A DNA stretch of 64,000 nucleotides, taken from assembly GCA_964036195.1 (NCBI GenBank), contig OZ038458.1:3224001-3288000 (forward strand), written 5' to 3'. Below the pieces are notes generated by a model. The model was not told the origin of the DNA. It saw only the letters and a list, made by a program, of their open reading frames with translations, and did not search any database. Position 1 is the first letter of the stretch; each line of letters starts with the position of its first letter. The position numbers and the translations under genes were made by a program. Shown piece after piece: positions 6,274-63,682 of this stretch. This stretch comes from Sphaerolaimus hirsutus (taxonomy: Eukaryota > Nematoda > Chromadorea > Monhysterida > Sphaerolaimidae).

Positions 6274-6442
6274 CATTAGAGGTCCAAAATTATCTATGTT
6301 TAGAAAGCGATTGTTCACCTGAAAGTTTTCATTCTTGACACTCTTCTAGTCATTTGACATGATGTGAAATTGGCCCCAGGGGTTATGAACTGACTGGTGG
6401 ACAGACTGGACGCTATCTTTTCGCCTACAGGTGAGTTCAGGG

Positions 6443-6653: not shown

Positions 6654-6655
6654 GG

Positions 6656-7109: not shown

Positions 7110-7352
7110 TGCCTACACACACTAGTTTTCATTGTGACTTCGTGTGAAAACTAAAAATTTTTCAAATGCAAATGGATGAACCCGGTTGAATGATTTAATT
7201 AAAATTAAATTTGAATTTAATTTAATAAAAGTTACAAATTGAAAATTTGAAAACTAAAACACATATAGCATACAATAAGAGTAGGCTGAATGTCGCCATG
7301 TGGCCATTTCAGTTTTCACACAAGTCACGGTGAAAACTAGTGTGTCTAGAGG
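7110..7352. mobile_element. MITE with ACACACTAGTTTTCA ends
   Basis: Left end CCTACACACACTAGTTTTCA and right end TGAAAACTAGTGTG are inverted. Related copies lie at 42572-42814 and 42822-43306. Copy B lacks this whole stretch at the matching place near 50585, so it was gained in A or lost in B. Confidence 0.7.
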
Positions 7353-7416
7353 GCCATTAACCAGCTTCAACCTCAAAAACGCATTTAATTACCCCCCCCC
7401 CCCCATTTCAGCACAG

Positions 7417-7525
7417 TGCGTTCGCAGTTCTGGCTGGGGCGGCTGCGGGAGCACGTGTGCAACACCGAGTGCCGGTACGAGAAGTGGGGCAAGAAGGCGC
7501 GCTGCATCGAGCACTGCCACCGCAC
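7417..7525 (+). CDS. Gene X exon gamma, copy A
   Basis: The acceptor is a run of 14 C followed by atttcagcacag; the exon could begin at 7412 if the upstream cag is used, but 7417 fits the phase of exon beta in copy B. Donor GTGAGA. Encodes VRSQFWLGRLREHV..., Cys-rich. Confidence 0.75.
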
Positions 7526-8944
7526 GTGAGACTGCTGGCGCCAGTCCCACACCCTGTACCTAAAGTGTAAAGTAAAGTGGCAAATGTAAAGTAAGGTGTC
7601 AAATGTAAAGCAAAGTGTCATGCCAAGTGTCAATTGTCATCACAAATGTATACTAAAGTGTCAATTGTCATGACAAATGTAAAGTAGAGTTAAGAGAGTA
7701 ATTGTGCAGTAAATTTACCGTTAATGAATGCAATGTGTAAAATATCACGAGGTTTGGTTGGTCTTTTATTCAGATGGGATACGGTAGATTGTGTCGAATG
7801 TCATGCAAAGTGTGAACTGTCATGATAAATGTGTAGTAAAGTGTCAAATGTCATGTCTAATGTCATGCAAAGTGTCTGTCATGACAAATGACAATTGACA
7901 GTAAAGCGTCAATTGTCATGCAAAGTTCAGTAATAAAATCTTATCTTTTTGTTTTGATTGACATTTTACATGACACTTTGCTTTACATTTGACACTTTAC
8001 AGGGACTGGGACTGCCCTCTGGAGAAATAAATAAAAAACAATTTTGAAGTGAGAAGTTGTAAGACAAATGGCAAATGACAAGAAAACGCTAAAAACTTTT
8101 TTTCACTTTTTGCTTGCCATTTTACTTCTCACTTCTGAATTTTCTCACTTACCATTACACTTCTCACTTAACTTTCTACTTCTCACATATGAATCGATTA
8201 ATTTACTTCCCCAGTAGCGGAATTGGAACCAGCTGATGTAGTGGATATGTTTGGCGCTGCCATGGCGCAGGGCATTTTGGTACTCTCAAATGGCGCCACT
8301 CCACCACTGCACTGGGGGCAGTCCCAGACTAGTGATGTAAAAGCGCCATGGCGCTGGCGCTTGGCGCTAAAGCAAAAAGCGCCATGGCGCTTTTGGCTCT
8401 ATTTTGCTGTGGCGCCATGCTCATGAAAAGCGCCATGGCGCTTTTGGCGCTTGGCGCTACTTTTGACCAAAATGCCTGGCGCTGGCGCTATGGGTCGGAA
8501 AAGCGCCATGGAGATTTTGGCGCTTGGCGCCAAAGTTCTGGCGCTTTTCACATCACTATCCCAGACCCTGTAAATTGTAAAGTAGTGTCAAATGTCATGT
8601 CAAATGTCAATCAAAAGAAAAAAAGGTAAGATTTTATGACTGAACTAGACAACAGTTGACAATTGACAGTTCACATTTGTCATGCCAATTGACGCTTGGC
8701 ATGACACTTTACTTTACATTTGACACTCTACTTTACACTCACTTTACGGGGTCTGGGATTGGCACCAGGATGTTTGAAAATTGAGAAATAAATAACTTTC
8801 TTTTTCAGGTGGAAAGAATACTACATGCCGCTGGCTGGGCAGACATTGCGTAGATGGCGCGCCTATGTCAAAGGAATGGCCGTGGCAAACTTCAGGACTA
8901 GATTTGGAATTTTCTTCCCTGAGAAACCCTGGAGAAGGATATAG
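7417..8944 (+). CDS. Gene X, last two coding exons (copy A)
   Basis: These exons were not recognised as a known family. Exon gamma is 7417-7525 and exon delta 8809-8944, phase 2 across the junction (AC|gtgaga ... cag|GTGG), joining ...IEHCHR to TWKEYYMPLAG... and ending PWRRI-stop. The segment is basic and has a CNTEC...RCIEHC pattern (C-x3-C-x10-C-x3-C). Upstream exons would lie left of the window, beyond the LINE; their counterparts in copy B are at 42.4 and 45.4 kb. Both exons are conserved between copies, with one synonymous change in delta and none in gamma, so they are under constraint. An AATAAA occurs at about 9242. The gene converges on KIAA2013. Confidence 0.78.
7545..8010. mobile_element. 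H-family hairpin array (GTGTCAAATGTCATG modules)
   Basis: Starts CCAGTCCCACACCCTGTA and ends ACTTTACAGGGACTGGGA, inverted. The body repeats AAAGTGTCAAATGTCATG on both strands. The H family recurs at least ten times in this window. Confidence 0.65.
8330..8558. mobile_element. hAT-like MITE, TAGTGATGTAAAAGCG ends, copy A
   Basis: Perfect 8-bp TSD TCCCAGAC (8322-8329 and 8559-8566). Termini TAGTGATGT and ACATCACTA. The body is a chain of GGCGC/GGCGCC and GCCATGGCGC palindromes. The target is the H-family hairpin, whose end sequence is itself CCCAGAC. The same insertion is in copy B (51211-51436), so it predates the duplication. Confidence 0.88.
8565..8765. mobile_element. H-family hairpin
   Basis: CCAGACCCTGTAAATTG pairs with the right end GGGGTCTGGGATTGG. 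The body has GTCAAATGTCATG modules and a central AAAAGAAAAAAAGGTAAG spacer. Confidence 0.65.
8809..8944 (+). CDS. Gene X exon delta (terminal), copy A
   Basis: Acceptor ctttttcag. Encodes WKEYYMPLAGQ...PEKPWRRI then TAG. A stray inverted copy of this exon lies at 38893-39493. Confidence 0.8.
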
Positions 8945-9528
8945 TGTATTTGATAAGCGACAAAATTGTCGTTTTAAATTTTTTAAGTTTCTGTCAACTA
9001 CACTCGTCACTTGATGAAAATACTAAAAATTAAACTCCTACCGTTCAACTCGAATGGGTTCAATCTAAGCAGTTGTGTTCAATTTTTTTTCGAAATTTCG
9101 GTACGAAACTATATTTACTTACCTATTTAGTGTAGGGACGATGTAAGCAATGGAAAATTTCCAGAGGAAAAACCTAAATACAGGATATTTTGTTTCATTA
9201 TTTCATAATCATTAGATATTTCATTACAATGTATGCGAACAAATAAATTGGGTGAACTAACAGAGTATTTGTACATGGTTATCGTGTGAAGTGATTGATA
9301 TAGCAGGGGTAGTAAAGTGGGTAACCCCCCCCCCCCCCAAAACGCCCAGTTATCTATCTATCCCGGAAGCAAATTTTTCATCTGCAAAATCACTAGTTCA
9401 TGTTCCGTATTGCCTATTTTCAGCGATCTTTAGTAGTATATGGTCTTGTATACCTATTTTGAGCTATTTTGCACCTGTTTTTAGAGATTGTTCTCCCTGT
9501 TCTTCCTACTACACCTCGAAAAAGCCTA
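8945..9528. other. 3' flank of gene X, copy A
   Basis: Contains an AATAAA at about 9242, then an element edge at about 9301 with a C-run and CTATCTATC motifs typical of the GATAGATAGATAGCTGG repeats. Copy B carries an extra 416-bp insertion here (51993-52408). Confidence 0.5.
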
Positions 9529-9530
9529 TA

Positions 9531-10890
9531 CAGTAGCGTGCAGAATAGTTGGGACTGTGCATGCTGCAGGATAAACATTGCCAAAATTTCAAAACGTTGA
9601 ATGTGCACAATGTTTGGATACAATTGGTGGGTACTGTGGGCTGTTGGCTACTGTGCCCGGGATGACCACCCCTCAAGTTTGTATGTGCATATATTCTTGG
9701 TGCAGTAACTAAATTCACTCAGTTTCTTTGTGTTTCAGAATAGTTGGGACTTTTCTTATTTTGGCCAGTAGCTGCCTAGTATCATATTTTTAGACTGTAT
9801 CCAACACCTACATTCATTTGTAAACAAAATTTTCAATATGGCGACTGCCTGCCTGTGTTGCTGAGCTCTGTGAGCAGCAAGGAACATTCTGAGAAAGAAG
9901 AGCAAATGGTTATGCATATGTGGCACTGTGGATTGTATTTATTTCAGCCAGTTTTGCATTCATTGCCAGCCACTCAGAAATGGAGGTAGGTATACTAGTC
10001 TGTGTGTAGGGTTCAAACGGGATCCCGATTCCGGATCCTGTGAAATTCCAGGATTTAGCAGTCCCGATCCCGATCCCGAAAATTTTCAAATCCTGATCCC
10101 GATCCCGAGAAACTCCAAAGTCCGGGATCCCGATCCCGGCAAAATTAGTGGAAATAAAAAAAAGTGAAAATATGACATTTTTGCATGCAAAAATGTGAAC
10201 ACAAACGCCCAGCGTCCATTTTATGCCACTTTTCTGGCATCCAACAGTGTTTTGAGACCTTTATGAACAACTGTGGATGCCAGAACATTGGCCAAAATCT
10301 CTATCCCAAGACCCCAATCCCGAAAAAATGCCAATCCCAATCCCGTGACCCCAATCCGGCCAATCCCGATCCCAATCCCGAAATCTCAAAAAACCAATCC
10401 CGATCCCAATCCCAAAAAGTCAATCCCGTTTGAACCCTATCTGTGTGGCTATTTGGTGTGTAAATTTGAGGTTTTTGCTTTGCTCTATTGAGGAAAAAAC
10501 TTGGCTCAACTGTCAATGTGTAATGTGCAAGTATTTTGTAAGGGAAACATGATGGAAGTTTGATACTATAACTTGATAGCATATGATAGCAAAGTGCTAT
10601 AACTTTTGATTGGAAAGAGATATTGAAATAATCTTTGTTGCATATGAATCCTGTCTGTCTAAAGTATATGATAGCATGCATAAAAATTCTTTGAATTTTC
10701 CAACCTCAAATTCTTCAAAATGCATCCAACAAAAAAATTTTAGTCATACCTCCAAACTCAAACCCAAACAACCTCAAACAGCATCAAAATTTGTCAAGGT
10801 TCAATAGAGTAAGAAGAGATGAAAGTATGATGTACCTGCTGCCCCCCATCTCTCTATGGTGAAAAGTCCCAACTATTCTGCACGGTAGTG
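9531..10890. mobile_element. Tc1/mariner-like MITE with TA target, copy A
   Basis: TIRs CAGTAGCGTGCAGAATAG and its partner CACTACCGTGCAGAATAG (reverse strand) are flanked by TA on both sides (9529-9530, 10891-10892). It is 1360 bp because a 433-bp hAT-like element sits inside; the copy B form (52816-53725) is 910 bp. No transposase ORF seen. Confidence 0.85.
10007..10439. mobile_element. hAT-like element with TAGGGTTCAAACG ends and a GATCCC array body
   Basis: Ends TAGGGTTCAAACGGGATC and its inverse; perfect 8-bp TSD TCTGTGTG (9999-10006, 10440-10447). Copy B keeps the empty site near 53287. Both flanks of the body are near-tandem GATCCC units in inverted orientation around a unique centre. 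Same termini as 17045-17449 and 60813-61911, which carry ATATCG arrays instead. Confidence 0.92.
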
Positions 10891-10892
10891 TA

Positions 10893-11340
10893 TATTAAAT
10901 CCACCAACTAAAAATTTGCAGCTATCTATCCTTCCGGAGGAGCGCTTTGCTTGCTATGTACCCAGCCCCCGGAGGGTAAAAATGTAGCTTATCCCTGCTG
11001 ATCAGATAGCATATTTTCTGTATTCATTTGAAAAATGCACGCGTACACAATCAGGGGGCTTTAATTACAAAAACTCTCAAAGAATGCATAAAATGTTCGC
11101 TCAGTGCAAACCATATAAAATAAGATTCCATTCCGAAGTCAGAAATCAAGAAAAAATCACCCATCAGATGAAATCGACCCGCAGAAAGCAATGTGACGAA
11201 AAAAGCAACAAAAAAAAATTCAGTAAAAATCGGACATATCGCATCGCAACAAATCGCAATTTACAGGCAAAACAAAATGCATATTTATTCACAGTAAAAG
11301 TGAACACCAACATCAACTAGGTATAAAAGTACCAACTTTT
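10893..11340. other. Spacer, no gene
   Basis: Right edge of the GATAGATAG-type element (CTTCCGGAGGAGCG, about 10930), then unremarkable A-rich sequence paralogous to 53728-54170. A 27-bp inverted repeat (GGTATAAAAG ... CTTTTTATACC, 11321-11347) stands exactly where copy B has a TA-target MITE. Confidence 0.45.
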
Positions 11341-11344
11341 TATA

Positions 11345-11512
11345 CCAACTCAGCAAGTGGACAAGTCAAATTGTGACAGGTACATTTTCCATTGCAATAC
11401 TTGTCACCGAAACGTTTACTTGTCACTCGAATTAGCACATTTATATTTAACTTGCTACTTACCATTTTTAATGTCACTTGTTCACTTGTAGAATTGGCAC
11501 CAGAACGCACAG
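11345..11512. mobile_element. T-type hairpin MITE
   Basis: CTCAGCAAGTGGACAAGT at the left pairs loosely with ACTTGTAGAATTGGCACC at the right. Copy B equivalent at 54418-54572. Confidence 0.55.
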
Positions 11513-11699
11513 ATTTTAAAACTTAATTTAGATTCAAGACGCTTGTGTAAAAAAACAATTAGTCGCCTGGCACTCTTAAATTTCACTGAATGTAAAAAAT
11601 ACATCAATGTTATATACACGCATATATTTTAATAATACAACTTATATTCATGGGCACAAATGATTCAGTGTCGTGTGAATCTACATACCTTTCCATAGT

Positions 11700-11925
11700 G
11701 CCCGCACACACTAGTTGACATCGAAATTTGTGTCAACTAAATCAATTAAATTTTCGTTAATTATGTTATTTCAACTTTCCTGGGTGATAGAGCATAGTTA
11801 ATTATATATAGTGACACTTAATTTTCATTGTTTGTGTTAAGTGTAATGCTTTAAATTTTTTGTTGTGGTGTCGTCGTTCAGTTGACACAAATTTGTGAAT
11901 TTCAACTAGAGTGTGTGTGGGCCCA
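11700..11925. mobile_element. MITE with CACACACTAGTTGACA ends, copy A
   Basis: Inverted ends GCACACACTAGTTGACAT and TCAACTAGAGTGTGTGTG, plus a second inner inverted pair TTTGTGTCAAC/GTTGACACAAA. Copy B at 54768-54990. Confidence 0.7.
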
Positions 11926-12022
11926 ATGGAACAATAATCTATTTATGTTTTTGCAAATTTCCACCAACTGGCTACGGCATCATATAATCACGTTCTCTTC
12001 GAATGTGTTATAATGACCACAC

Positions 12023-13149
12023 TAGGGATGGAAATTCTTTTTTTAAGACCCTGTTTTTTTAAAAACAAACATTTTTAAAGACATTTTTTTAAAAAGCTCC
12101 CAGATATGGTTATGAGTCAACATAATCAGGTATATCAGACAGTTGACAGTACTTTGTGATGATATATATAGCCATAAATTGGCTGTGGAGCCATGGGATA
12201 GCGTTATAAGTGGTGATTTCTGTCAGAATTATCCGTTTTATGTTGACTTTTACATATATCGGCTTTTGTCGAACATTCGTGCCTCCAAGTTAATTTGGCC
12301 ATGGAAAAGTGTTTAAATAAGGTTACAATAGAAGGGTTATATATTGGCAGTGATTTTTCACACTGTACAAGTATATGGAAGCACATTGACTGGATACTAT
12401 ATGCTACACCAGGGGTCTCCAAGATTTTGGCCATCGCGGGTGCTGGATAGATAGCAAATCGCTCCTCCGGAGGGATAGATAGCTGAAAATTTTTCTGGGG
12501 GGCTGGGGGGGGGCTTGGGGGGGGGGCTGGCGGGGGCACAATATATAGGCTTTTTCGAGGTTAAGAAGGCAGAAAAGGGAAAAAATCGCTAATAATCAGT
12601 TAAAAGTAGCCAAAAGTAGCTTTAAAATGGCTAAAAATCGGTATATAACCATGTATATAGCCGGAAAGCACGATTTTGAAGGTGAAAAACTATAAAAAGG
12701 TGCGGAAATTAGTAATGTTGAGCGAAAATTGGGGCAAAATTTCTCAAAAACCACTCCAGATAGATAGATAGCTGAGCGATTGGGGGGGGGGGGGGGGTCT
12801 TTGGGGGTAGTAGCCAAATTTTTTTGACTCGGGATAGATAGATAGCTGGGCGGACTCCGGGATAGATAGATAGCTGGCCGATCCCTGTGCTACCTAACAT
12901 ACCATGGTTTATTATGGCACAATAGCATGAACAAATGGAATCTTTCACACAAAAAATTCCTCAAAACCAATGAAAACCATCACCAATGGTAATGTGTATA
13001 TTAAATTGCGCGCTACTGCGCAAATAATGGCAAAATACCTAGCGCTTACTATAAAAAAATTTGGCTGATGTTTTAAAAAAACGGTTTCGATGCCTGTTTT
13101 TTAAACTACCTTTGAAAAAAAGACGGTGAAAAAAACCCGGCCATCCCTA
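12023..13149. mobile_element. hAT-like element, TAGGGATGG ends, copy A
   Basis: Perfect 8-bp TSD GACCACAC (12015-12022, 13150-13157) around TAGGGATGG...CCATCCCTA. Poly-T/poly-A tracts lie just inside both ends. A second element (12410-12887) is nested inside. Paralogue in copy B at 55089-56631. Confidence 0.9.
12410..12887. mobile_element. Nested hAT-like element, CAGGGGTCTCC ends, copy A
   Basis: Left end CAGGGGTCTCC; right end reduced to ATCCCTG, whereas copy B keeps the full GGAGACCCCTG. Near TSD TGCTACAC/TGCTACCT. The interior has GATAGATAGATAGCTG runs and long G tracts. Confidence 0.75.
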
Positions 13150-13151
13150 GA

Positions 13152-14046
13152 CCACACGCACGCTAGTTGACAACTGAAATTTCCAAAACTGATAAATCAG
13201 GTTTGAACAAATTTGAGTTCACAAAAATGAATCACATCAACAGTAGTTGACGGACATTGCCATAAACTCAAACCTGTTCAAAGCACAATTTCAGCTTTGG
13301 AAATATCGCCGTAAACTGACTGTGTGCGCATCCACAACGCAGAAAGCAGTAGTACAGCCTGAAAGAACTATCACAATTATGTCAATAAATCCGATATGTC
13401 GACATTCGACATACGACATTCCACAAAGAATCGTCCTTTTTCGCATCGACATACATATAAATATCTCTAAAAAAGTCGGATAATAGCAATCAACAAGGAA
13501 AAAAGTACTCAAAAACTTATCCTTACATAAAGGTTGATATCGATATCGATAGTGATTACACTTAAAACTTAGGAAATCGTTATCGACAAAATCGCTCAAT
13601 ATTGTATATTCCAAACGACTTATGTTCACACATTCAATTTCCCTGACGCTGTAATGTGTCGTGTCAAATGTAAAATGTCATGTAAAGTATAAAGACGAAA
13701 TAGTCATCTAAAATGTAAAATTGTATATCACGTTCCTATCGGGCAGTTGACAGTTTCCATGACATTTTACAGCGCCTGAGAGTGCTATCCAAACATAAGA
13801 CGCCAGACACGCGAGCAGGTAAGCGCGCAACATTACAGCGCTTAGGACTTACGCACTTACTTAACAACCGTACTTCCAAATGTGATAAATCTGTTTTGAA
13901 TACATTTGAGTTAACAGGAATGAGAAATTCGTCAACTAATATCGATGGAAATCAAAAACCATTCATTGCGGTAAACTCAACTGTGTTCAAAACAGATGTA
14001 TCACCTTTGAAAGTTTCAGTTGTCAACTACTCGTGTGGGGCGCCCT
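13152..14046. mobile_element. Composite MITE with GCTAGTTGACA ends between the two genes
   Basis: Ends CCACACGCACGCTAGTTGAC and GTCAACTACTCGTGTGG, with a second inverted pair (TGATAAATC, GATGTATCA) inside. An H-family hairpin is nested at about 13645-13780. The right end lies about 20 bp downstream of the KIAA2013 stop codon, so it probably forms part of that 3' UTR. Confidence 0.6.
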
Positions 14047-14066
14047 AGACCCTACACGCCCTACGT

Positions 14067-14270
14067 TCACATGGAATACCTGCCCCTGGAGTAGGGCCTG
14101 GCCTCTGCACTCCTACTCCACTCATTATACACGAGCCTTATGAGCACGGCGTGGAACACGACCACCAGCACGACGAGCGCCGCCCAGAAGTAGTTGGGCA
14201 GCCCCGCGAACCTGTGCCCGTGTCTGTGCAGCGCCAGCACGTGCGCCTCGTGCGCCGGCGCCACGGCTAC
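14067..14270 (-). CDS. KIAA2013: KIAA2013 exon 12 (terminal), copy A
   Basis: Acceptor tgtgccgcag|GTAGCC. Encodes residues 562-628: a His-rich juxtamembrane part, the second TM segment, RLVYNEW and the tail ending RGRYSM, then TGA. Confidence 0.93.
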   Translation of the reverse strand, partial: VAVAPAHEAHVLALHRHGHRFAGLPNYFWAALVVLVVVFHAVLIRLVYNEWSRSAEARPYSRGRYSM

Positions 14271-17200
14271 CTGCGGCACATTTGAACGGCATTTGGGGAT
14301 TGGATTGGTGAGTTGAGAAAATGTTATCTTTTTGGATGATGAAAAAACAACCAAAAAACTGATTTTTTAGGATTAAATTGGGATCGGAAAATATTTCTAG
14401 GGATTTTGCGGCCAAAATTTTTTATGTCTGAGTCGATAACGGGCGAACAGGATACAAAATGCAATTTTACAAACAAAATAACATTTTAAAGGCGAAGTCA
14501 AGTGGGGACTTTCATTTATCATTCCAAATGTTCACAAGCGCCAAAATCACAAAAATCGAGTTAAGCGTGGATTTGACTTCCACGTATAGTTTTTCATATT
14601 TTGGAAAAACAATTAAGGTCCATCTCGTTGCCGAGATACAGTGGTACCGATTTTCAGAACAATCACGATTTTCACATCGAAAGTGCACATATCCATCACA
14701 CATCCCCTATGAAAAACAGGACTTTCACATCGAAAATGCATATGTCCATCTCATACCGCCAGAGTTTCATTTCATAAGTGCACATTCCAAAAAATAGTTT
14801 CATTTCCAAAAGTGCACGCGTGTTCCGGATCGACCGCGAAGAGCCGGCCGTACAAAAAAGTTTCATTTTCAAAAATTACACACGTGAATTTCCGAATCTA
14901 TTTGCACTATAATTCTAACATGGTTGTATATTTAGATCTGAAAATTTAGGTAATGGTACTTTTCGACAAGGGCTTTTCAATGGTGTAATTAGTTTTGCCG
15001 TGCGATGCACCATGAAGAAGTTATCGATCTTTCAATTTCAAATGTTCAGTTTCGTCCCCAATGTTGGGTGATTTCCAAAATTTAGCATAACTCCCTAAAT
15101 ATTTGCCGGCGGACAAAATTTGTGGCTACAAAAATTGTAGAGAAATGTTCGATTTATCTGAAAAGTGCAGGGCAAGCTTTGTCGCGTGTACATAGCGCCG
15201 TCGAGCCATCGTCAAACTTTAAAATGCGATTTTGAAAAATGGAAAATTGAGGATATATGCATTTTTGGAATGAAAGTCCCCAAGTACAAGAAATGAATGT
15301 TCTTTACTGAAATTTTTTATTCTTCGTTTTGATTTTTTCTGAAACAATTTTTATTAAAGCGGCGTTTACACTGCGAGCTGTGCCAGCAAATTTTTTTTGT
15401 CGCCAATGGACTTTTTGTCACGACAACGCACAAATTTTACAGAAATTTTGCCTGTGCCGACAAAAAAGCCTCGTTCAACAGAAACCGAACCGACAACAAA
15501 AATATGACGAAAAAGCCTCGTTGAATTCCGGGCGAACCAACAACGAACATTTGGACGGATTGGCAAGTGTGATCATTTTTGGAATGAGGTATACTCGGCA
15601 GACACGATACTCTACAAACTGATAGGAGTTATGTACCTTTTTTTATCAAACTCGAATATCTATGTCAAACTGAAAACTTTAAGGAACGAATTTTCCCAAA
15701 AGAATTAAGAAAATGATAGATTTCTCTGTATGCCGGGCTGACGCTACTATTTTCAAGTGAATACGTGGCATTACCAAAGCCAGAAATATTGCTATTTATC
15801 TTAAGCGGAACTTATAGCAGACTATTTCACCAATTGCGGCGAACGTTTCGAATGTGGCCTTTAGATTCAGGAAATATCACGCTCGTTTCGTCTGAACAAG
15901 TTCTAGCGCGGCCGAATTTTCCATGACACATATACTCAGCGGACCGCAAAGTATGTACAGAATCCTACTAGAATTTAATGAATAAAATCTTGTGAAAACT
16001 TTCACAATTAATTATTCCATAGTAAAAGTGAAATGAAATATGATGAAAACTGTATAATTTTTGGTTCATTATTCAGATGGGTTATGGTATGTTTCCATAC
16101 AAAGTGTGATGTCCATCGGGTATACCTATTTTCTTTTTTTGTATTTCACACCGGAACGAGTTGGATAGCGGCTGAAATTTATGACGTATCACACTGCGGG
16201 AGTGTTTCCTCAAGGAAAAATGTATGGCATAAAGTAACTCAGAGTATATGAATTGCACTATTTTTAGCAAAAACAGGGCAGCCTCCCAGAAAATACCTAG
16301 CCCCTTGAATTATCCCTCCTGCGCAAATTACCTACCACCTCGAATTATCCCCCCCCCCCGTAATTACCTATCCCCTCGTGAATTATCCATCTCCTTGAAT
16401 TATCACACCACGTGAATTACCCATCCCCTCGACTTATCCCCTCCATGTGAATTACCCATCCCCTCGAATTACCCCCTCCCCGTGTGAATTACTCATCCCC
16501 TCAAATTATCCCCCCATGAATTGTCAATCTCCTCGAATAATCCTGCAATGAATTGTCCATATCCTCGAATTATCCCCCCATGTGAGTTACCCATCCCCTC
16601 AAATTACCCCCCTGTGAAGTACCCATCCCCTCAAATTATCCCCCTGCATGAATTACCATCCCCTTGAGTTATCCCACCTGCGTGAATTACCCATCCCCTT
16701 GAATTACCCCCCTGTGTGAATTACTCATCCCCTAGCAGTAACCCCCACCCCCGTGTGAATTACCTACCCCTTGAATTATCCTCCCTGCGTGAATGAATTA
16801 TCTACCTCCTCATAGTAAACCCCCAAGGTAGGTGAATTATGGTAGGCTTCCATACTAAGTGTGCTGTTAGCTGGGTGTGTTAAAAATGAAATATGATGAT
16901 GAAAAACTGTATAATTTTTGATTTATAATTCAGATGGGTTTTGGTAAGTGACCATACTAGGTGTTATGTCTGCCGAGTATGCCTACCTCCTCTAATTACT
17001 CCCCATGTGGGTATTACATACCTACTGGAACTATCCCCCACATGTAGGGTTCAAATGATATGACTTTTCGATATCGATATTCAATATTTGATATTTTTCT
17101 GAAACTCGATATTCGATATCAATACTATATGGAACCTTGATGTTGATATTCAATAAAAAAAATTGTCTATATTTGATATCGAAATTTCTCTTGGTATAGC

Positions 17201-23200: not shown

Positions 23201-26200
23201 ACTTTTTACTACTATCCTTACAAAAATTTCTGTTGAAATAATACTGCCCCCTCGAATAGACCCCCCTCGAATTAACCCCCCTCAAATTTTTCTGGCGAAA
23301 TAATAAACCCCCATGGGGGTATTTTGTGGTAATATGGAAAATAAGTATGTAGCTAGTATAAACCCTGACATTTTACAGGGTCTTTTACGTGACACATGAC
23401 ATTTTACACTTTGCAGGGTCTTTTACATGGTCTTGAACTGCCCCCTGGGGGTATTTCAAGGAAGAACAATTCAATGGGGGGATAATTCGAGGTAATACAG
23501 CATATGCATTCCCCCCTATCACTCACTACACCACTCCCTCATACACTTTTATAAGCAACTGTGGTCAAGTCGGTGTCGTCACAAAAAATGAAGAAAAAAA
23601 CACGTTCGCAGCTCGTGGCGACAATCAACAACAAAAACCAGGCTCAGATGAAAACATTTTTTTTCTTGTGACGACAAGCGCTCAATGTCACATTGTCGCC
23701 AATCAAAAGCTTGTGCCGACAACAAGATTTTTTCGATCAAAAAAAGCGAACCGACAACGTGAAATTTTTAAAATGCTTATAACTCTGGGCTTATAACTCT
23801 GGAACAAAATCGCCGATTTATCTGAAATTTGGCATGTGAGTGCAACTAACTAGTGAGTATACTGACCTGTTTTTTCTCGCAGATATGGAACTTTATTCTG
23901 GATTTATGGAACTTTTTCACTTTTCGAATTGTCGGCACATTTTGCAGTGTAAACGCCGCTTAAATAAACGATGACGCCACGATGGAGTGTTTCCTTGTAA
24001 AAAATGCATAGCGTGCGGTCCGCCGAATATAATGGCAGTGAGTAATCACATGCACTTGCCACAACGGCCCCACGCACGCTAGTTGACATCGATACCAAAT
24101 GTCAACTGGTTCCGTTCCCAATTCAAAGCTTGCATTTCAGCGTCGATCGTCGGCTCGTCAGCACGCCTTGAATCGGGATCGGCATCAGTTGACATTTGGT
24201 GTCGATGTCAACTAGCTAGTGTGGGCCCAACGCCACATGTGACGAAAAGCGCATCCAACGTGACCAACTTCTCGCACGTGGATGGCGTGCTTCATGTCGC
24301 GGATGTGTCGCTCGCTCGCCGCCACGTACAGAATCGATGTCAACGGCTCCGTCATTTTCACCTGCATGTTCATTCACACGATCAGGTAAAGGCGCTGCGC
24401 ACACGCACGTACGCAGCATTCTTGCGCGGGGGGGGGGCGCATTGTATACGGAGCCCGGCGAACGGGGGGGGGGGGCGGCGCCCCCCCTCAATTTTGGCTC
24501 TAAAGTAATGGAATGGAGCCATGGCTCTGGCGCCATTTGTGGGCCCCAGCGCCATGGCATTATTGGCGTTGGCGCCAATATCTACTATATAGGTACCTAT
24601 TTATACCTAACTATTGTACTAGGACCGTGTTAGGTGCCTTTGTAAAGCTGTTAGACTCCGCAAACATATTTACATATCAAATGACAGGAAGGGGTTTGCG
24701 CTTTTTTTCGAAGTGCCTACAAAATCGCTTAAAAACGTGCTATTTCCGGCAAATTTTTCTATCCTGTCGGGGAACGGGGGGGGGGGGCGGCCGTGAGGGT
24801 GCACTTCTATGCACATATGCCCGGCCCGCATTTACGCCCGGCCCACACATAATGAAACCCGGACTGCACAAAAGCCCGGTCCGCACGTAACTGGTGCTAT
24901 GTGCGTGCGGGGCGTATGGGCGCGCCAGATGTATGTGCGTGCGGGGTTTGTGATCGCATACCCCACAACACCCCCCACATTTTACATTTTGTTTGAGCAT
25001 CCATTGATGAAAATGTCATCTAAAATGTCTTGTCACTCGACTTCTCGGTCAACTGAAGAAAAAAATCAAATTCCTATTCTACATAATATTTTCAGTTGAG
25101 GGGGGCTTTATTATTTCGTCAGAAAAATCGAAATTTTGTAGGGGGGGTATTGCGATGGCTGGGCTTGCTTGAGGGGGTTATTATTTCGTCAGAAAAATCA
25201 AAATTTTGTAGCTTTTCACATAAAGCAATTATGGTAGTGGCGGCCAAATACAAAGGGCTAAGCATTGTTCTCTCTTATTACCACTGTTCCCTGGCCTTTG
25301 TGTTTGTCGCGGCCAGTGTCATGTGCGGGCTGACGTAAACGCAGCCCTCCCCCTTCCTCACCGAGCCGGCGCGCACATATGCCTCGCGCGCACATACGAC
25401 CGGCACGCACATAGCACCAGTTATGTGCGGACCGGGTTTCAATGGCGCACCGCACACTGCAAAGTGTAACGATCGGGTCCGGACGTTTTAATTTTCGCCC
25501 GGGCAGAATAATAAAGTCAGTTCGGACGATTTTATTTACGACACATCTCAAAAAGTACTGAACTTTGGGTCGGTTCGGACGATTTTTAATTCAGCCCCTC
25601 TTTTTTAATTCCGCCTTTGAATTCCACCCAAAAATCGTCCGAACTTCCCGTTACACTTTGCAGTGTGCGGTGCGCCATTATGTGCTGGCCGGGCATATGT
25701 GCGTAAGAGGGCTGCTCCGCGACCGCCCCCCCTGCCTACGTGCTTGGCTGCACACACTAGTTTAATGAGAGCCAGTAAACTAAAAATTTGGAAAACTCAT
25801 AAATTCACTTTGAATGGCATATGAGTTTACTGGAATTAGGTGTTCGTCAACTGCAGTTAAACTACACTTAGTTGACCATGGGGAGTAAAAATAACTCATT
25901 CCAGTAGAATCAAATGTGCCTGCACACACTAGTTTACTACCGGTAAACTAACAATGTAGTAAAATATTATTTCAACTTCTGAGCGCAGCTGAGTTTACCG
26001 ACATGGGTTAATTTTTATCTCCGTCAACTGTAGTTGACGAACAGCTCATTCTGGTAAACTCAGCTGCGCTCAGAAGCTGATATATGAGTTTACTAAATTG
26101 TTAGTTTACCGGCAGTTAAGTAGTGTGCGTAGCGACTGTAGATAGGGGAGCAACAGTAGACGATCTGGCGTTTGTTTTATAGTCACCCACCAAAATCCAG

Positions 26201-29200
26201 AAATTGAATGAAACGATAAACCATCTTGAGCGTGCGTGAAGATCCACAAATAAAATGAGATGTTTTTGAACCTTTTTGTAATGAAACACTGAAAAATTCA
26301 ATTCAACAGGCCCGGAGACAATAAAAATAAGGAAAATAACAATTGAAAAGAAGATCTGACCCTGACACCAAACAGATTTCATTTTCACATCTTGAACTTG
26401 AGTAAAAAACTGCTCATGCAAAACACAAACCTTGGAATCAGAAAAAAGAACCCCCCCCCCAAAAAAAAAGAAAAAAAAGAAAAAAGAAAGGACCCCCAAC
26501 CCCCAGAAATAAACCCCGCCCACCGGGAACATAGTCCTCTGCGCCTTCAACTTGACAGGCTCATCCAAACATCCCGCATCACAAGCGTACAAATTTCCGC
26601 CGCTGCCGCCCGCAACGGACGCGTACTGAAGTCAGCCCCACACCCTGTAAAATGCCCTGTAAAATGTCAAATGTCATGCAAAGTATCTCAAGTCATGTAA
26701 AATGCCCTGCAAAATGGCAAAGTTTTGACATTTTGCAGGGCATTTTCCATGACGTTAAACACTTTGCATGACATTTGACATCTTACATGGCATTTGACAG
26801 GGTCCGGGAGTGGCACCAGGCGCGCCGTGTTGTCGTCTGCCACGGCGACCCAAATGTTGACGCGCGACGCGCGCGCCCCAAGCGAAATATTGGTGAAGGC
26901 AAAGTCTCGGTGGAGTTCGTCCGGTCGAGCAGCTAGTTCCAGATGGTGGTGCGTGAATTTTAGGGAACCCAGACTTTGGACTAGCGCCTGGGTTGGGGCG
27001 GGGGGTAATGCAGTTTTTTCTTTAAATTTCAATCAACTAAAACGAGAATAGCCGCTCAGCTAGACCATAAAAATAAATATGTTTAAGTCGAGGCGCAGTT
27101 TTTGTGTAGTCATTTTTATGATCAGACACTTCACGTACATATTTCGTACAAAATTTGAAATGAACATATCACTTATAAGTTCCCTGTAACTTGCAACTTC
27201 GGTTCATACTACTGTGCGGCGTTGGAAGCGATACAAATCATAGTGAACAGTCACTGCGAATGGTCCCGCACACCCACAATTATTGTAGCATATTGCCTAG
27301 TTTCAACTAGGGATTGCAGCTGCTTTTTTTTTAAAACGCCGCTTTTTATAAAAAAACGCAAGGGTCCCAGCGCTTTTTTTAAAAAAGAGCACTGTCAAAT
27401 TTTTTGTACCTATGCACTAGGTATTTTGTAATTTTTTCGCGCGCGAGCGCGCAATACCGCATGCAAATTGCCATTGGTGGTTGTTTTCATTGGTATTGTG
27501 GCATTTTTAGTGCCATTGCTTCTATTACTGCATGGTATCATGTAATCATAAGTTGTGATATGTCAGTCAAGTATATAATACCCGGCCAATGTGCTTCAAC
27601 ACACTTTTCTACAGTGTGAAACATCAGTGTCATGTATTAGCCTTCTCTTATAGCCATATTTAAGAAGTATCCCATGCTTAACTTCACTAGAAGTCACGAA
27701 ACATTCACAAACGGCGATATACATTACAAGTCAACATAAAATTGGATTTTTTTTCAGCAGAATTCAGGATTTTTAATGCTATCTCATGATTACACAGCCA
27801 TTCTATGACTATATATCATCACAAGTACTACCACTTGTCTGATATACCTGTATATATTGGCTACAGTGGGAAACATCAGTCTCGATGTATTAGCCTTCTT
27901 TTATAACCTTATTTAAGCACTATTTCATGCCTAACTGCAGTTGAACTACTTTCATGCCTAACTTCAGTTGAACTAGTATGTTATTTACATGTACATATTA
28001 TACAAATTGCAAAAGTAGTCATTGCATTTTATTTCGTTTGCGCATTAACTGTGATACAAAAGTTATTGGTGTGACTCGACACACATGTCATTGCATGGTA
28101 GTCACTGCCACGGCGAACCAATAATGAACAAATCAAATTTCAACTAACGACCATTTGACAAATAGCAATTTACATAACGAGTCAACACAAAATATAGATT
28201 TTTTTGGCATATAACCCCACTTATAATGCTATCCCATGGCTCCACAGCCATTCTACGGGAATATATAATCACAAGTACCGCTAATTGTATGATATACTTG
28301 TATATATTGACTCAGAACCATATTTGGGAGCTTTCTAGGTAATGTCTTGACATTTTTTGATAAAAACCAAAAATAAGCGCACTTTTAAAAAAAAAGCGAG
28401 GCTGTTAAAAAGCGCTTTTTATCCATCCCTAGTTTCAACACTTTGACGCCATGTGTACCATTTGCATATCTATTCTTGCGATTTCCTTATGCCTTCTACA
28501 CATTGAAAAAACACATCTTTATATTAATCTCCGCGAAGCCACCACCCCACAACAAAATCCGCCAGTCACGCACAATGTAAAATGTAAAGTAAAGTGTCAA
28601 ACGTCGTGTAAAATGTCACACAAATTTGTCAATTGTCTCTGAAATTCTTTTTGATTGACATTTTACATGACATTTGACACTTGACTTTACACTTTACAGA
28701 GTGAGGGACTGCCCCCAGTGCCCCCAAAGAAACCTGTGCGACCCCCTCGGCACCCCCCGTGTCCATCATCCTGGCACAGCCAGCCTTCTCCAGGGTCAAC
28801 CGCCACACGTAGGCCGTGTGCACGAGCATCTCCACACTGTCCATGTCCGCCCACAGCGCAGAGGGGTACAGCAGCGTGTTGTGCGTGTTGTAGCACAGCT
28901 CCGCTGGTTCCAACGGGGATTGGGGGGTGCTAGAGTTCTGCGGGGGGGGGGGTGGAATGTGATAAGAGACACAAAATGTTAATAGCATACTACGACCTAC
29001 AATGGGTGAACTTAAGCTAGCGACTGGAAAATTGTTGACTGAAGTAATTTTCCAATGGTGAGCGACAAGTAAACTCTCAAATGACAAGTGATTTCAGTAA
29101 CATATCCATATTGTGACTTACAAAATTTCTTGTCATTTGACTTACCAACTAAATGTAAATGTTTACTAATTTTCTTGTTACGTGTGCGTTTGCCTCATTG

Positions 29201-32200
29201 ACACCAGAATTTATGCATATCACGCTGTAAAACATGACCTAAATTAAAACTGAAACTAAATAAAATAAATGATGTCCAACGATCACGCCAATCACGATCA
29301 CCATTAACTCTCCATATTTTCATGAATTAACGGGGGGGGCTAAAATGGAGCCCCCCGCAGCCCCCCAAATTTACCCCCCACCAACCGGGATCTCCTCCCC
29401 AGTATTCCTCTCAAACCTTGGCGCGCGCGCATTCGCCAACAACACATATCTGGTGGCGTTAATCCTGTCGCCGTTGAGCGTCTGCGGCGCCAGGGAATCG
29501 CTCACGCTGAAGCCAACCGTCCACAAACGGGACCAGGCGTCAGAGTGGGTTGCGTCCATCTGCCAGTGTAGAATGTATGTAAAATGGAGACATAGGGGTC
29601 CCCAATGGGGTGGCGGGGGGGGGCAACCCACCATAAAGAGTCTATTACATCGAGCCGGTTACATATATACCGTTTTTCTTCGAAATACCCACCCTCAAAT
29701 GATTATCAAAACACGAATGTGAAAAAATCAGCAAACTCCGGCGATACCGTTGATTTTATATTAATGTTCGCCCAAAATCCAGAAATTTTCAGAAAAACAA
29801 AGGGAGATTTAAAAAAGGTATTTATAGCACATAAACGACCAAATATAGATGAAAACAGGCAATAAGACAGCTGAACTAGTGATTTTGATGGTGAGAATTG
29901 ATAAAAAGTCTATCAACGATTGTGAACAAAGATTGGGGCAAAATTTCATCAAAACGCTCCGGGTTCAGGGGATAGTAGCCAAAAATTTGCCTCCGGGAGG
30001 GATATAGGGCTGGGCGATTTGGGAGGTACCCCCTTGGAGACCCCCTGCACTCTGACCTGCGCGGGGGGTACGGCCAGTGCCTTGGTCAACTCTCTCAGGG
30101 CGACCCCTTCCAACCCCTTGCGCGCAGCCTCGTACAGGTCCAGTTTGCTGGGCTCAGATACGGACACGGCGCTGGTGAAACGGTACGATTCCGATGTGCG
30201 CCCCCGGACCGCTGTGGGGGGGGGGGGTGTTTGGGGAGATTGGGACATCGGTTGCCACTTTCATCAATGCCTTGTAAAATTTCAAATGGCATGCGGTGTC
30301 AAATGTCATGAAAAATGCCCTGGAAAATGGCAGTTTGCCTTTTTACCGGATATTTTAATGACTTTTGACAGTTTGCATGACATTAGACATTTCACAGAGC
30401 CTGGAAGTGATCCTAGAAATTGTGGAGCCGAAAATTGGCTTGCTCAATTTGAGATTAGCACAAAAATATTCAAGGTTAGTTGAATTCGACAGTTGAGCAC
30501 AAATTCAACTTAGTTGAATTGCATAAAATTGAAATTCCGGTTAAAAACGCAATAGTCACAGTTATCATTGGAGCCATATAGTTCATTGCAAAAATGTTGC
30601 CGGCTTCAAACTGCAAATAAATTTTCAACTATTAAATCGAGATAATACCCGAACGGAAAAAAGTTCTCGTGAATCACGAATGGAATACCATCTATCTCAA
30701 CTAACGATGGCAAACCCCCCAAAAAAGTATTTAAATTTTTAAGTGTTTTTTCCTAAATGAACTTTCGAATTTTCGAATTTTTCCTGACATTTATTTTCGA
30801 ATTTAATAAAATTTTTGAATTTTCGAATCTTTTCTTGGCAATTTTCAATTTTTTTGGCTATTTTTCGAATTTTTTTCCAGATAATTTTCGAATTTTTTGG
30901 GAAAAATATTGAATCTGAAGCTTTTAATGCAGAATTTGACTGTTTCGGAAGTGGCTATACTCGGCAGATGTGATACTCTACAAATAGATATGATTTATGT
31001 CTTCAGCTGGCAGACAGCCAACCAAAAACTTTTGAACCGACTCCCCACTGCACTCCACTTCAACTTTGAATCGGTTCAGTCAGCTGTAAGTTCACTGCGG
31101 ACTGTGGTTATGACGTCATGATGGAGTGTTACTGCCACAAAAATGTATAATGTAATGTTGCCTGAGTGATGTAATGTTGCCTGAGTTTAGCACACTGAGC
31201 GTACTCAGTTCATACAGTGCTAACTTCACAAAATACACAGCTACTTCTCACACCAATACTTGAAACCACCCTTTTATCTTTGATCACATATCTTTTACTT
31301 AGACCTAAATATGTGCAGTTCCTATGGGCCATCCCCAACACCTGTAAAATGCTCTGTGAAATGTCAAATGTTATGCAAAGTGTCTAAAGTCATGGAAATG
31401 CTGTGGAAAATGGCAAATATGTTAGCAATTTTCCTGGCCATTTTCATAACTTTTGACACTTTGCATGACATTTCACATTTTACAGGGCATTTTACATTTC
31501 ACCATTTTTGGACGTTTTTTTGTTTTGTACGCTGTTTTGTTTTGTTTGGATGCTTTTTCAAATGCACCGCGTATCAGATACGATTTATTTAGCACGTTGA
31601 ACTTAAGAACGGTTTTGTTGCCTTGAATTTCCTGAAAAATTCGAAAAGTATTTTCGAACTTTTTGAAAAATAAATCGATTTTTAAGTGTTTTTTTCTAGG
31701 GGTGAAATAAAAATTCGAAAATTCCGAAAAAAATTCGAAAATGTTTTCGACACTTTGCAATGTTTTTTTTGCCATCGTTAATCTCAACACGATCAAGCGA
31801 TGCGCGTGCATTTTTTCAAACAGAACATTTTTTAAACCGACCAAGTGTAGAAGTGAATGATGGCAAGGCTGCGCTAACTAAAACGACCTGCCCGTCTGCA
31901 AGATCGACTTTCTTCGTGAGCACTTGCACACTTTGGCCGCTGTCCAACTGCGAAAATCATGGCCCTCTAAAAATACATTGTCAGTCTAAACGATGAAATT
32001 TTTTACTGTTTGTTAATTTTGTTACATTGTTTACTGGGTATTCTCAAAGATGACTTTTTCGAGAAAAAATTCCCAAAAAATAGACAGCGAGATTCTTTCA
32101 AAGTCTATGTCGAGCGATAAAACGTGCTGATTATGGGTTACATCAGGGACGTACGCAGGATTTTTGAGCGGGGGGGGGGGCGGATTGTATACGGAGCCCG

Positions 32201-60700: not shown

Positions 60701-63682
60701 AAACATCCCGCATCACAAGCGTACAAATTTCCGCCGATGCCGCCCGCAACGGACGCGTACTGAGGTCAGCCCCAGACCCTGTAAAATGCCCTGTAAAATG
60801 TCAAATGTCATGTAGGGTTCAAACGATATATCGTATCGAATATCGAATATCGGATATCGACCATTTTTTAATATCGAATATCGATATCGAAAATATTAAA
60901 AAATATATCGAATATCGAATATCGATATCGAAAATTTTGAAAAAATATCGAATATCGACATCGAATATCGACCATATTTTCGATATATCGAACCTGTATA
61001 ATGTCCTTAATTAAGTTATTATTTTTGTTTTGAGATATTTGTGATTAATTTGATTTGCTTATACCGTATTTCCTCGAAATACCCCCCCCCCCCCTCGAAA
61101 TACCCCCCCTCAAAATGGGCACTATGAATTTGTGGTCCGGGAAATGCATAACAGACATCCAAAACACTTACTGTGTTACGTTAGAACATCGTTTATACCA
61201 TCTACATCCTTATAAAAGGCTGTAAAAACTTATAAATGGTGGTTATTGTTGCATTTTTCACGTTTTTCTCTCTGAAAAAATAAACCCCCGGGGGGTAATT
61301 TGAGGAAATACGGTAGTATCTAAGTTGATGAGTAAAAGTAAAGTATTTAATGTCATCTTTGTTGGAGTGCTTACTCCACATTTCTTGTATTTGGTTTGGC
61401 CACATACCTACTGAACTACCTACCTCAAATTTGAAGCCAGAAAATGCCGATATGCTGCTTTTTTGCAACATGCCCTTAAACAATTGGGTTATAAGTATGA
61501 ATTGTAATATCTACCAATTTTTGTTTGTCTGATACAATTTGATTCGTCATGTTTTTTCTTCGATTTTCTCATTCTGACCATTGTAAACCTTGTTAAAATC
61601 AATTGTACTTTCAGTAAAGAGATAATCAACCATGTTTGCAACCATATGAAAATACAATATGCTGCTTGAAATATGCCTTGCTATACCAAAAGCTTAATAT
61701 CGAATATCGAAAATATCGAAATATCGATATCGAATATCGACCATTTTTCAGTATCGAATATCGAATATCGATATCGAGGGTCCATATCGTATCGAATATC
61801 GATATCGAAAATTTTGAAAAAATATCGAATATCGAATATCGATATCGAGAATTTTGAAAAAATATCGAATATCGAATATCGATATCGAAAAGTGATATCG
61901 TTTGAACCCTAATGTCATGCAAAGTATCTAAAGTCATGTAAAATGCCCTGCAAAATGGCAAAGTTTTGACATTTCGCAGGGCATTTTCCATGACGTTAAA
62001 CACTTTGCATGACATTTGACATCTTACATGGCATTTGACAGGGTCCGGGAGTGGCACCAGGCGCGCCGTGTTGTCGTCTGCCACGGCGACCCAAATGTTG
62101 ACGCGCGACGCGCGCGCCCCAAGCGAAATATTGGTGAAGGCAAAGTCTCGGTGGAGTTCGTCTGGTCGAGCAGCTAGTTCCAGATGGTGGTGCGTGAATT
62201 TTAGGGAACCCAGACTTTGGACTAGCGCCTGGGTTGGGGCGGGGGGTAATGCAGTTTTTTTATTAAAATTCGATCAACTAAAACGATAATAGCCGCTCAG
62301 CTGGACCATAAAAATAAATATGTTTAAGTCGAGGCGCAGTTTTTGTGTAGTCATTTTTATGATCGGACACTTCACGTACATATTTCGTACAAAATTTGAA
62401 ATGAACATATCACTTATAAGTTCCCTGTAACTTGCAACTTCGGTTCATACTACTGTGCGACGTTGGAAGCGATACAAATTCTAGTGAACAGTCACTGCGA
62501 ATGGTCCCGCACACCCATAATTATTGTAGCATATTGCCTAGTTTCAACTAGGGATGGCCAGCGCTTTGTTTTTAAAAACGCCGCTTATTTAAAAAAAACG
62601 CAAGGATCCCAGCGCTTGTTTTTTAAAAAAGAGCACTATCAAAATTTTTTGTACCTATGCACTAGGTATTTTGTAATATTTTGCGCGCAAGCGCGCAATT
62701 TCACATGCACATTACCACTGGTGGTTGTTTTCATTGGTTTTGTGTATTTTTAGTGCCATTGCTTCTATTCCTGCATGCTATCATATATATAATAAAAAGC
62801 CGTGATATGTTAGTGTAGTATATAATATCCAGCCAATGTTCTTCCACATACTTTTACAGTGGAAAACATCAGTCTCGATGTATTCGCCTTCTTATTTCAT
62901 GCCTAACATCAGTTGAACTAACGACCATTTGACAAATAGCAATTTACATAACGAGTCAACATAAAATATGGATTGTTTGGCATATAACCCCACTTATAAT
63001 GCTATCCCATGGCTCCACAGCCATTCTATGGCTATATATAATCACAAGTACAATTGTATGATATACTTGTATATATTGACTCAGAACCATATTTGGGAGT
63101 CTTGACATTTTTTAAAAAGCGCTTTTTTTTAAAAAGCGCGGCCGTTAAAAAAAGCGCTTTTTATCCATCCCTAGTTTCAACACTTTGACGCCATGTGTAT
63201 CATTTGCATATCTATTCTTGCGATTTCCTCATGCCTTCTACACATTGAAAAAGCACATCTTTATATTAATCTCCGCGAAGCGACCACGCCACAACAAAAT
63301 CCGCCAGTCACGCACAATGTAAAATGTAAAGTAAAGTGTCAAACGTCGTGTAAAATGTGACACAAATTCGTCAATTGTCTCTGAAATCTTTTCTTTTTGA
63401 TTGACACTTTTCATAACATTTGACCTTGACTTCACACTTTTCAGGGTGCGGGAGTGCCCCCAGTGCCCCCAAAGCAACCTGCGCGACCCCCTCGGCACCC
63501 CCCGTGTCCATCATCCTGGCACAGCCAGCCTTCTCCAGGGTCAACCTCCACACGTAGGCCGTGTGCACGAGCATCTCCACACTGGCCATGTCCGCCCACA
63601 GCGCAGAGGGGTACAGCAGCGTGTTGTGCGTGTTGTAGCACAGCTCCGCTGGTTCCAACGGGGATTGGGGGGTGCTAGAGTT
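57591..63682 (-). CDS. KIAA2013: KIAA2013 homologue, exons 8-12 (copy B, 5' part outside window)
   Basis: Exons in coding order: 63682-63479 (8), 62228-62058 (9), 60759-60658 (10), 59303-59220 (11), 57794-57591 (12). Lengths are identical to copy A (204, 171, 102, 84, 204) and all splice sites are intact, covering residues 375-628. Differences from copy A are few: two amino acid changes noted (Asp to Ala in exon 8, Ser to Ile in exon 10) and several synonymous ones. Introns differ by insertions: intron 9 is 1298 bp instead of 191, intron 11 about 1.4 kb instead of 10 kb. No disabling change, so this is a functional allele or paralogue, not a pseudogene. Confidence 0.92.
58023..58783. mobile_element. 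MITE with GGGGACTTTCATTCC ends, copy B
   Basis: Counterpart of 14503-15283. Confidence 0.68.
58855..59219 (-). other. KIAA2013 intron 11 remainder, copy B, with the empty site of the 8.6-kb element
   Basis: The run ...AATTTTTTTTAAATAAACG at about 58850-58865 is uninterrupted where copy A has 15358-23959. About 200 bp at 58970-59195 has no counterpart in copy A. Confidence 0.6.
59220..59303 (-). CDS. KIAA2013: KIAA2013 exon 11, copy B
   Basis: Identical in length and protein to copy A; acceptor cctgcag. Confidence 0.9.
59352..60115. repeat. Degenerate CAGGGACGTACGC-type MITE and GCCCGG-unit block, copy B
   Basis: Counterpart of 24405-25745 with about 600 bp missing. Confidence 0.5.
60116..60312. 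mobile_element. Palindromic MITE with AGTTTAC arms, copy B
   Basis: Counterpart of 25919-26131; left tip lost. Confidence 0.65.
60658..60759 (-). CDS. KIAA2013: KIAA2013 exon 10, copy B
   Basis: Acceptor gacctcag; CDAGCLDEPVKL unchanged; one Ser-to-Ile change in the Gly-rich part. Confidence 0.93.
60813..61911. mobile_element. hAT-like element, TAGGGTTCAAACG ends with ATATCG arrays, copy B only
   Basis: Perfect 8-bp TSD ATGTCATG (60805-60812, 61912-61919); the empty site is in copy A intron 9. The arms are inverted arrays of ATCGAATATCGATATCGA-like units. A TA-target element (61064-61313) is nested. Confidence 0.94.
61064..61313. mobile_element. TA-target MITE, CCGTATTTCCTCGAAAT ends
   Basis: CCGTATTTCCTCGAAATACC and TTTGAGGAAATACGG, TA flanks, nested in 60813-61911. 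Confidence 0.85.
62058..62228 (-). CDS. KIAA2013: KIAA2013 exon 9, copy B
   Basis: Same length; one synonymous change (CCG to CCA) noted. Donor CTG|GTGCCA. Confidence 0.92.
62549..63173. mobile_element. hAT-like element, TAGGGATGG ends, intron 8 copy B
   Basis: TSD GTTTCAAC. GCGCGCAAGCGCGC at 62683-62696. Internally deleted relative to 27308-28431. Confidence 0.88.
63479..63682 (-). CDS. KIAA2013: KIAA2013 exon 8, copy B
   Basis: Acceptor preceded by about 15 C; donor CAG|GTTGCT. Asp-to-Ala change in WADM(D/A)SVEM. Confidence 0.92.

Follow-up and report, generated by a model that had tools for sequence, protein, structure and literature searches.

The origin of introns is a long-standing question, and the birth of an intron has rarely been caught in animals. 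Several known systems come close to the one described here. The introners surveyed by Gozashti et al. (2022, PMC9860276) are groups of similar introns whose ends are also transposon ends. In those with DNA-transposon signatures, such as the introners of Chrysochromulina, one splice site lies within the element, the other is borrowed from the target duplication, and protein length is mostly unchanged. That survey placed introners in just two animal groups. In the non-canonical introns of Fritillaria borealis, a YAY triplet directly precedes the 5' splice site and recurs at the 3' end; AG/AC and AG/AT are their commonest borders, and the U2AF genes of this animal are duplicated (PMC13326754). 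The nonconventional introns of euglenids have variable ends that lack complementarity to U1 and are joined by RNA structure, and they harbor direct repeats at their junctions; a MITE-like origin has been proposed for them (PMC4770533). For human genes, a 2007 survey recorded TG as an acceptor solely where an AG lay within 28 nt, and in no case as the one acceptor (PMC2374985). Finally, the NuwaI group of the PIF/Harbinger superfamily (PHIS) is marked by CWG target duplications and GGG termini and is reported only from animals (PMC4482050).

Here we describe the H family, a group of hairpin elements in the nematode Sphaerolaimus hirsutus that were recognized in one window, the whole 64,000-nucleotide stretch analysed, located on contig C14; the assembly searched comprises 348 Mb. 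From the sequence evidence, H elements are very probably non-autonomous transposons of the NuwaI type that act as an introner, with removal by splicing predicted. The initial annotation had suggested that the family makes introns, and this is supported by full-length H introns in conserved genes, CWG duplications, uninterrupted HSP70 paralogues, a strand bias and a bias towards AG.

By analogy with Chrysochromulina, the mechanism would be that of an introner that brings a 5' splice site with it and takes the 3' site from its target. H resembles the introners of Gozashti et al. in its similar introns, in ends that coincide with the transposon ends, in the one borrowed splice site and in the mostly unchanged protein length; it differs in its 3-bp CWG duplication, its full-length hairpin, its animal host and the presence of TG rather than AG at the end of 228 of 681 exact copies (PMC9860276). 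Fritillaria is the closest animal case met in the literature consulted, since a triplet, YAY there and CWG in H, is found at both places of the intron and the last dinucleotide therefore follows the triplet, whereas H keeps GT at one end and AG or TG at the other (PMC13326754). The euglenid introns are similar in their structure-joined ends, their junction repeats and their proposed origin, but H carries GT and mostly AG (PMC4770533). In place of variable, non-spliceosomal borders, 56 of 71 H copies begin with GTGCCA and AG is favoured.

The hairpin intron of KIAA2013

The host gene, identified by a match to PF10222, is KIAA2013, which lies on the minus strand and is present in two copies, A and B, in the window. 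The features of the locus are as follows.

26626..26816, minus strand: intron 9 of KIAA2013 copy A, as a whole one hairpin of the H family (probably NuwaI-type), with GT donor 26816-26815 and AG acceptor 26627-26626; from sequence, repeat arms, fold and comparison with copy B
26817..26819, minus strand: target triplet, 5' exonic copy, CTG (a Leu codon); from sequence and family comparison
26626..26628, minus strand: target triplet, 3' intronic copy, CAG, which gives the AG acceptor (CTG..CAG class); from sequence and genome-wide classes
26817..26987, minus strand: exon 9 of copy A; from sequence and PF10222 over the junction
26507..26625, minus strand: exon 10 of copy A, low-coordinate end approximate; from sequence and PF10222
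60760..62057, minus strand: intron 9 of copy B, the same element with the same CTG..CAG flanks, enlarged to 1298 nt; from sequence
60813..61911, minus strand: 1099-bp insertion inside the copy B element, with the 8-bp duplication CATGACAT on either side; from sequence
28559..28715, plus strand: degenerate H element in KIAA2013 intron 8, not at the intron ends; from sequence and end motifs

Intron 9 of copy A is a phase 0 intron of 191 nt, and its junctions on the minus strand read ...GCGCGCCTG/GTGCCACTCCC...GGGGCTGACTTCAG/TACGCG.... The initial annotation had described it as consisting entirely of one H hairpin with GT and AG at the ends, and its coordinates proved exact. The intron belongs to a single inverted repeat, the arms of which (26626-26721 and 26724-26819) are 83% complementary and are separated by a 2-nt gap. 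The predicted folding energy of the RNA is -121 kcal/mol, whereas 200 shuffles averaged -48 and none of them was as stable (z -17). In this predicted fold a stable pairing joins the intron ends, with 4 nt left unpaired at the 5' terminus and 7 nt at the 3' terminus. When exons 9 and 10 are joined, the PF10222 profile is matched continuously over the splice point, at 417-509. The intron contains an in-frame stop and its length is not a multiple of 3, so that it is unlikely to be read through as coding sequence.

The protein-exact junction is GT..AG in both copies of the gene, with an exonic CTG and an intronic CAG as flanks in each. The copy A element is 87% identical to the H consensus, and its 3' end has diverged too far to match the end motif by which the 76 copies described below were collected, so it is absent from that set; two bases of the 3' end are closer to the consensus in copy B. 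We judge the insertion to be older than the duplication of KIAA2013, the one basis for this being that both copies share the element at the same codon. The insertion nested within the copy B element has inverted ends TAGGGTTCAAACGATAT and abundant CGATAT repeats, and is possibly hAT-like; duplications of 8 bp are known from hAT elements.

A second hairpin, near the donor of KIAA2013 exon 8, had been put forward in the initial annotation as a like case, and this did not hold. The element at 28559-28715 is in the reverse orientation, is flanked by AAT and CAG rather than by matching CWG triplets, and lies inside a larger intron. It was rejected as an intron maker and is regarded as a nested copy.

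Copies, ends and target duplications

A genome search with intron 9, in which 40 of 3030 first-look candidates were scored, gave 81 matches on both strands. From these, 38 loci were fetched with about 3.4 kb on each side; they were chosen by resemblance to intron 9, so densities and gene rates among them are not genome-wide. Two of the 38 fetched copies, L014 and L015, showed no ends under a first, stricter reading. Read donor-first, the family consensus is CWG/GTGCCA(C/G)TCCCAGACCCTG...CAGGGTCTGGGA(C/G)TGCCCC/CWG. An alignment of 45 near-full-length copies together with intron 9 gives a consensus of 189 bp, to which the median identity is 92%.

Within 332 kb (the 38 loci and the window), 76 copies were found by their end motifs, with the flanks CAG..CAG in 24, CTG..CTG in 15, CTG..CAG in 7, CAG..CTG in 5 and other combinations in 25. 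Exact end patterns in the whole genome number 354 for CAG..CAG, 193 for CTG..CTG, 99 for CTG..CAG and 35 for CAG..CTG, at least 681 copies in all, while the reversed-pattern control, also run on the whole genome, returned none for any of the four flank classes. The two triplets agree far beyond chance (p 8e-58), which identifies the CWG triplets as a target duplication. The target triplet is directly followed by G in 35 of 50 sites. CAG/G is the classical exon junction, which a CAG target followed by G resembles.

The terminal repeats are asymmetric. The 5' end is GTGCCA and the inverted 3' end is GGGGCA; the two differ at positions 2 and 4, and position 7 is variable at both ends. Exact ends in the 332 kb are of the GT/GG type in 24 copies, with none of the GG/GG or GT/GT types, and allowing one mismatch changes these counts to 47, 3 and 0, respectively. 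We infer that the GT terminus arose from a GG one and that the elements multiplied in this spliceable form. Copies with the ends GTGCCAGTTCCGCA...TTTGCGGAACTGGCCC, or near to these, make up a second subfamily (L034:941, L034:3874, L040:2111 and window 6441-6651), and the first of them is an entire HSP70 intron.

Relationship to NuwaI transposons

H shares with NuwaI elements the 3-bp CWG target duplication and, at its 3' end, the GGG terminal trinucleotide, as GGGGCA (PMC4482050). The 5' end is instead GTGCCA. The NuwaI families in that report were identified by their transposase, whereas H is a non-autonomous hairpin of 189 bp whose asymmetric end provides a putative splice donor (PMC4482050). 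At least 163 matches to the transposase domain DDE_Tnp_4 (PF13359) were found in the genome, and the same search was positive in 1 of 14 control genomes. We infer that H is a non-autonomous family of the NuwaI type, mobilized by a NuwaI-type transposase. Most of the DDE_Tnp_4 matches listed extend over about 211 codons for 147 profile positions and have four TGA codons inside, as if the transposase gene had an intron.

A literature search for NuwaI together with introns found no paper joining the two (one unrelated match), and one for Harbinger together with introners gave a single match, PMC8476143. Within the literature searched, three points are new: the NuwaI-like origin, the asymmetry of the ends and the GT-TG class predicted below.

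H elements as introns in other genes

The initial annotation had named the absence of other full-length H introns from the genome as a result that would speak against its proposal; the opposite was found, with H copies spanning from exon boundary to exon boundary in conserved genes. The flanks of each copy were joined without the element and one triplet and then translated, and ten of the resulting peptides, picked by eye, were compared with Pfam. In eight of the ten a domain extends over the junction: HSP70 twice, NDUFS3 (PF00329, 6e-34), PAS, Myb, C2H2 zinc finger, TOG and ANTH. The weaker cases are TOG, which at 1e-5 is slightly under the curated cut-off, and ANTH, which reaches just 5 residues past the junction. 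The other two joined peptides, GPCR-like and SMYD-like, had no Pfam match. The PF00329 gene we take to be NDUFS3, and other hosts are presumed to be DCAF1, SNAPC4, CKAP5, a cyclin and a TGF-beta receptor. Similar sequences thus fill whole introns at differing positions of unrelated genes, with the element ends as predicted splice sites and the target duplication at the junction. A splice-solution script solved 12 of 15 copies, L017, L030:345 and L037:4671 having no frame by peptide anchors, and the protein-exact junction is GT..AG in the five solved CAG-ended copies.

At locus L034, the stretch of HSP70 gene that was read contains six introns; three of them (2, 4 and 6) have H ends at both boundaries, and intron 4 harbors further copies inside. 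Introns 1, 3 and 5 are ordinary GT-AG introns, the third of which holds an H-like copy. The ordinary donors of these three introns and of KIAA2013 (GTGGGT, GTGCAT, GTTTGC, GTCAGA and GTTTCT) look loose beyond GT in these few examples.

It might be argued that intron 9 of KIAA2013 is an old intron into which a hairpin was later inserted, the original sequence having then been deleted. H copies do lie inside other introns, namely KIAA2013 intron 8 (in the opposite orientation) and HSP70 introns 3 and 4. However, intron 9 has no non-element sequence left on either side, its donor is the element end and its acceptor is the flanking triplet. The same boundaries are moreover found in several unrelated genes, where separate trimming events would not all have stopped at the same base, and this history is very unlikely.

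The copies also show an orientation bias. In a codon model from which each copy's own locus was left out, 19 of 71 copies scored as coding on the donor-first strand against 3 on the other (L009:1874, L012:5203 and L033:5254), at the 99% level of 866 control scores. The counts were 28 and 7 at the 95% level, and 12 against 3 (p 0.018) at the strict level when the 7 of the 19 that had served as training copies were removed. Since 36 of the 71 copies fall below the 95% coding level on both strands, insertion is not confined to coding sequence. Simple open-frame counts were rejected as proof, as they do not separate the strands (28 versus 24 of 36 copies). Against the introner reading, GTGCCA agrees poorly with the usual donor consensus outside its first two bases.

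A 67-residue HSP70 query extending over the CTG..CTG element of L034 was found uninterrupted over all 67 residues at four other places in the genome, and over residues 2-62 at a fifth, with no stops. The five places are 61-75% identical to the query, and provide an empty counterpart for one HSP70 site. The L034 gene is interrupted at this codon by the element, and a near-identical gene is interrupted there too, with about 259 nt between the matches. This is strong evidence, short of formal proof, that the HSP70 intron was gained by insertion; the divergence of the paralogues makes the loss of an older intron formally possible. Two further HSP70-like genes, at C3:29308949-29309343 and C3:29341289-29341684, have their interruptions at a different codon; the gaps measure 185 and 183 nt, close to the length of H.

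That the coding insertions are merely recent, harmful or heterozygous disruptions in one assembled haplotype is an extremely unlikely alternative. A few copies are indeed more than 95% identical to their nearest other copy. Most aligned copies are nevertheless not fresh, as judged from the median identity to the consensus, the still lower identity of intron 9 and the nested insertion in copy B, and disruption accounts neither for the donor-first strand bias nor for the 99:35 bias towards AG described below. The element is also present in both KIAA2013 copies, and the same codon is interrupted in the two near-identical HSP70 genes.

Flank classes and the AG acceptor

The copies with discordant flanks are unequally divided, CTG..CAG outnumbering CAG..CTG by 99 to 35 in the genome (p 3e-8). 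The null expectation is 50:50 if both triplets drift alike, whatever the mutation bias. The direction of the excess is explained by the codon, which constrains the exonic triplet but leaves its intronic counterpart at liberty to acquire AG. The excess is as expected if selection favours AG; alternatively, the element may sometimes carry CAG along at its 3' side. Intron 9 belongs to the favoured CTG..CAG class in both KIAA2013 copies. Among concordant copies, CAG..CAG exceeds CTG..CTG (354 versus 193, p 6e-12), which could reflect selection or an insertion preference.

On the introner reading, an H element would insert at a CWG triplet, mostly one with G next to it, and the triplet would be duplicated. 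Were it to land in an exon with the GTGCCA end first, the pre-mRNA would read CWG/GTGCCA...GCCCC CWG/, with GT supplied by the element and the acceptor by the duplicated triplet, and the long hairpin would bring the intron ends together in the RNA. A CAG target would yield a GT-AG intron at once and leave the protein unchanged. A CTG target would yield a GT..TG intron, spliced well enough to be tolerated, perhaps with help from an AG 19 nt upstream (usually TTTTACAG). Selection would then favour a change of the intronic triplet to CAG, and intron 9 of KIAA2013, with its exonic CTG and intronic CAG, may be such a case. Several steps can thus be followed within a single genome, from the target still uninterrupted, through GT-AG insertions and the awkward GT-TG ones, to the apparent change from TG to AG.

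Predicted GT-TG introns

For a CTG target the intron that keeps the protein exact is GT..TG, and TG, not the AG of a canonical GT..AG intron, stands at the end of all seven CTG..CTG copies examined in coding sequence. Genes with CTG duplications include those of NDUFS3, HSP70, PAS and ANTH. (The 193 exact CTG..CTG copies are the genome total, exonic or not.) Each of the seven is in phase 0 and follows a Leu codon, a number too small to interpret. Phase is given for these CTG..CTG copies alone, since longest open frames gave wrong frames for some copies (for example L009:901, L029 and L044). Searched against the entire genome with an E-value limit of 0.001, an NDUFS3 query matched nothing but the two halves on either side of the H element, and no second NDUFS3 locus was found. 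With one locus, the element must somehow be removed if this subunit of complex I is to be made.

An AG precedes the end by 19 nt in all 22 TG-ended copies, against 29 of the 36 AG-ended copies (Fisher p 0.037; 58 of 71 copies, those of the window being excluded). We propose tentatively, with slightly less than even confidence and from sequence comparison, that the CTG class consists of constitutive GT-TG introns, in which the hairpin would join the ends, the upstream AG would serve for recognition and the TG for the second step. Genes such as NDUFS3 would depend on this, and a later mutation to CAG would make the intron canonical. The human TG alternative 3' splice sites are alike in being TG ends of U2-type introns with an AG nearby, but in that survey TG never stands alone (PMC2374985), whereas in H it is the sole acceptor predicted to keep the protein exact. 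Two propositions thereby become testable: that the U2 spliceosome of an animal uses TG as its only acceptor, and that a transposon end evolves to a spliceable form.

It is also a real possibility, somewhat on the doubtful side, that the CTG..CTG coding copies are spliced through other sites and add or remove residues, for example through a GC donor 2 nt inside the element together with TTTTACAG 19 nt upstream (+21 nt). On paper, GT-AG or GC-AG solutions that keep the frame can be drawn for each of the seven, the smallest being -3 nt with a GC donor (L014:3389) and +9 nt with GT-AG (L027), and one Aureococcus introner is known to have altered a few codons when it inserted (PMC9860276). Yet every one of these alternatives within the limits of the script alters the protein. 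For NDUFS3 the smallest solution swaps four residues of a conserved stretch for one and needs a GC donor and an exonic acceptor, and for HSP70 the smallest adds 7 residues.

Removal without a spliceosome, by a structure-guided cut and ligation such as has been considered for the euglenid nonconventional introns, would suit the very stable hairpin that holds the ends together and the CTG-class ends that are not GT-AG, and a MITE-like ancestry has also been suggested for the euglenid introns (PMC4770533). It is most improbable for H: the family retains GT at just one of its ends and shows a preference for AG at the opposite one, a pattern to be anticipated if the spliceosome uses them.

Other features of the window

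The window contains a large direct duplication whose pieces are about 89-96% identical; it pairs approximately 6265-15358 with 49675-58859 and 24245-29250 with 59187-64000, and carries KIAA2013 twice. An open frame at 1-1881 had no Pfam match. Beside it, at 1706-5404 on the plus strand, an open reading frame of 1233 codons combines an endonuclease (PF03372) with a reverse transcriptase (PF00078), and represents a LINE-type retrotransposon.
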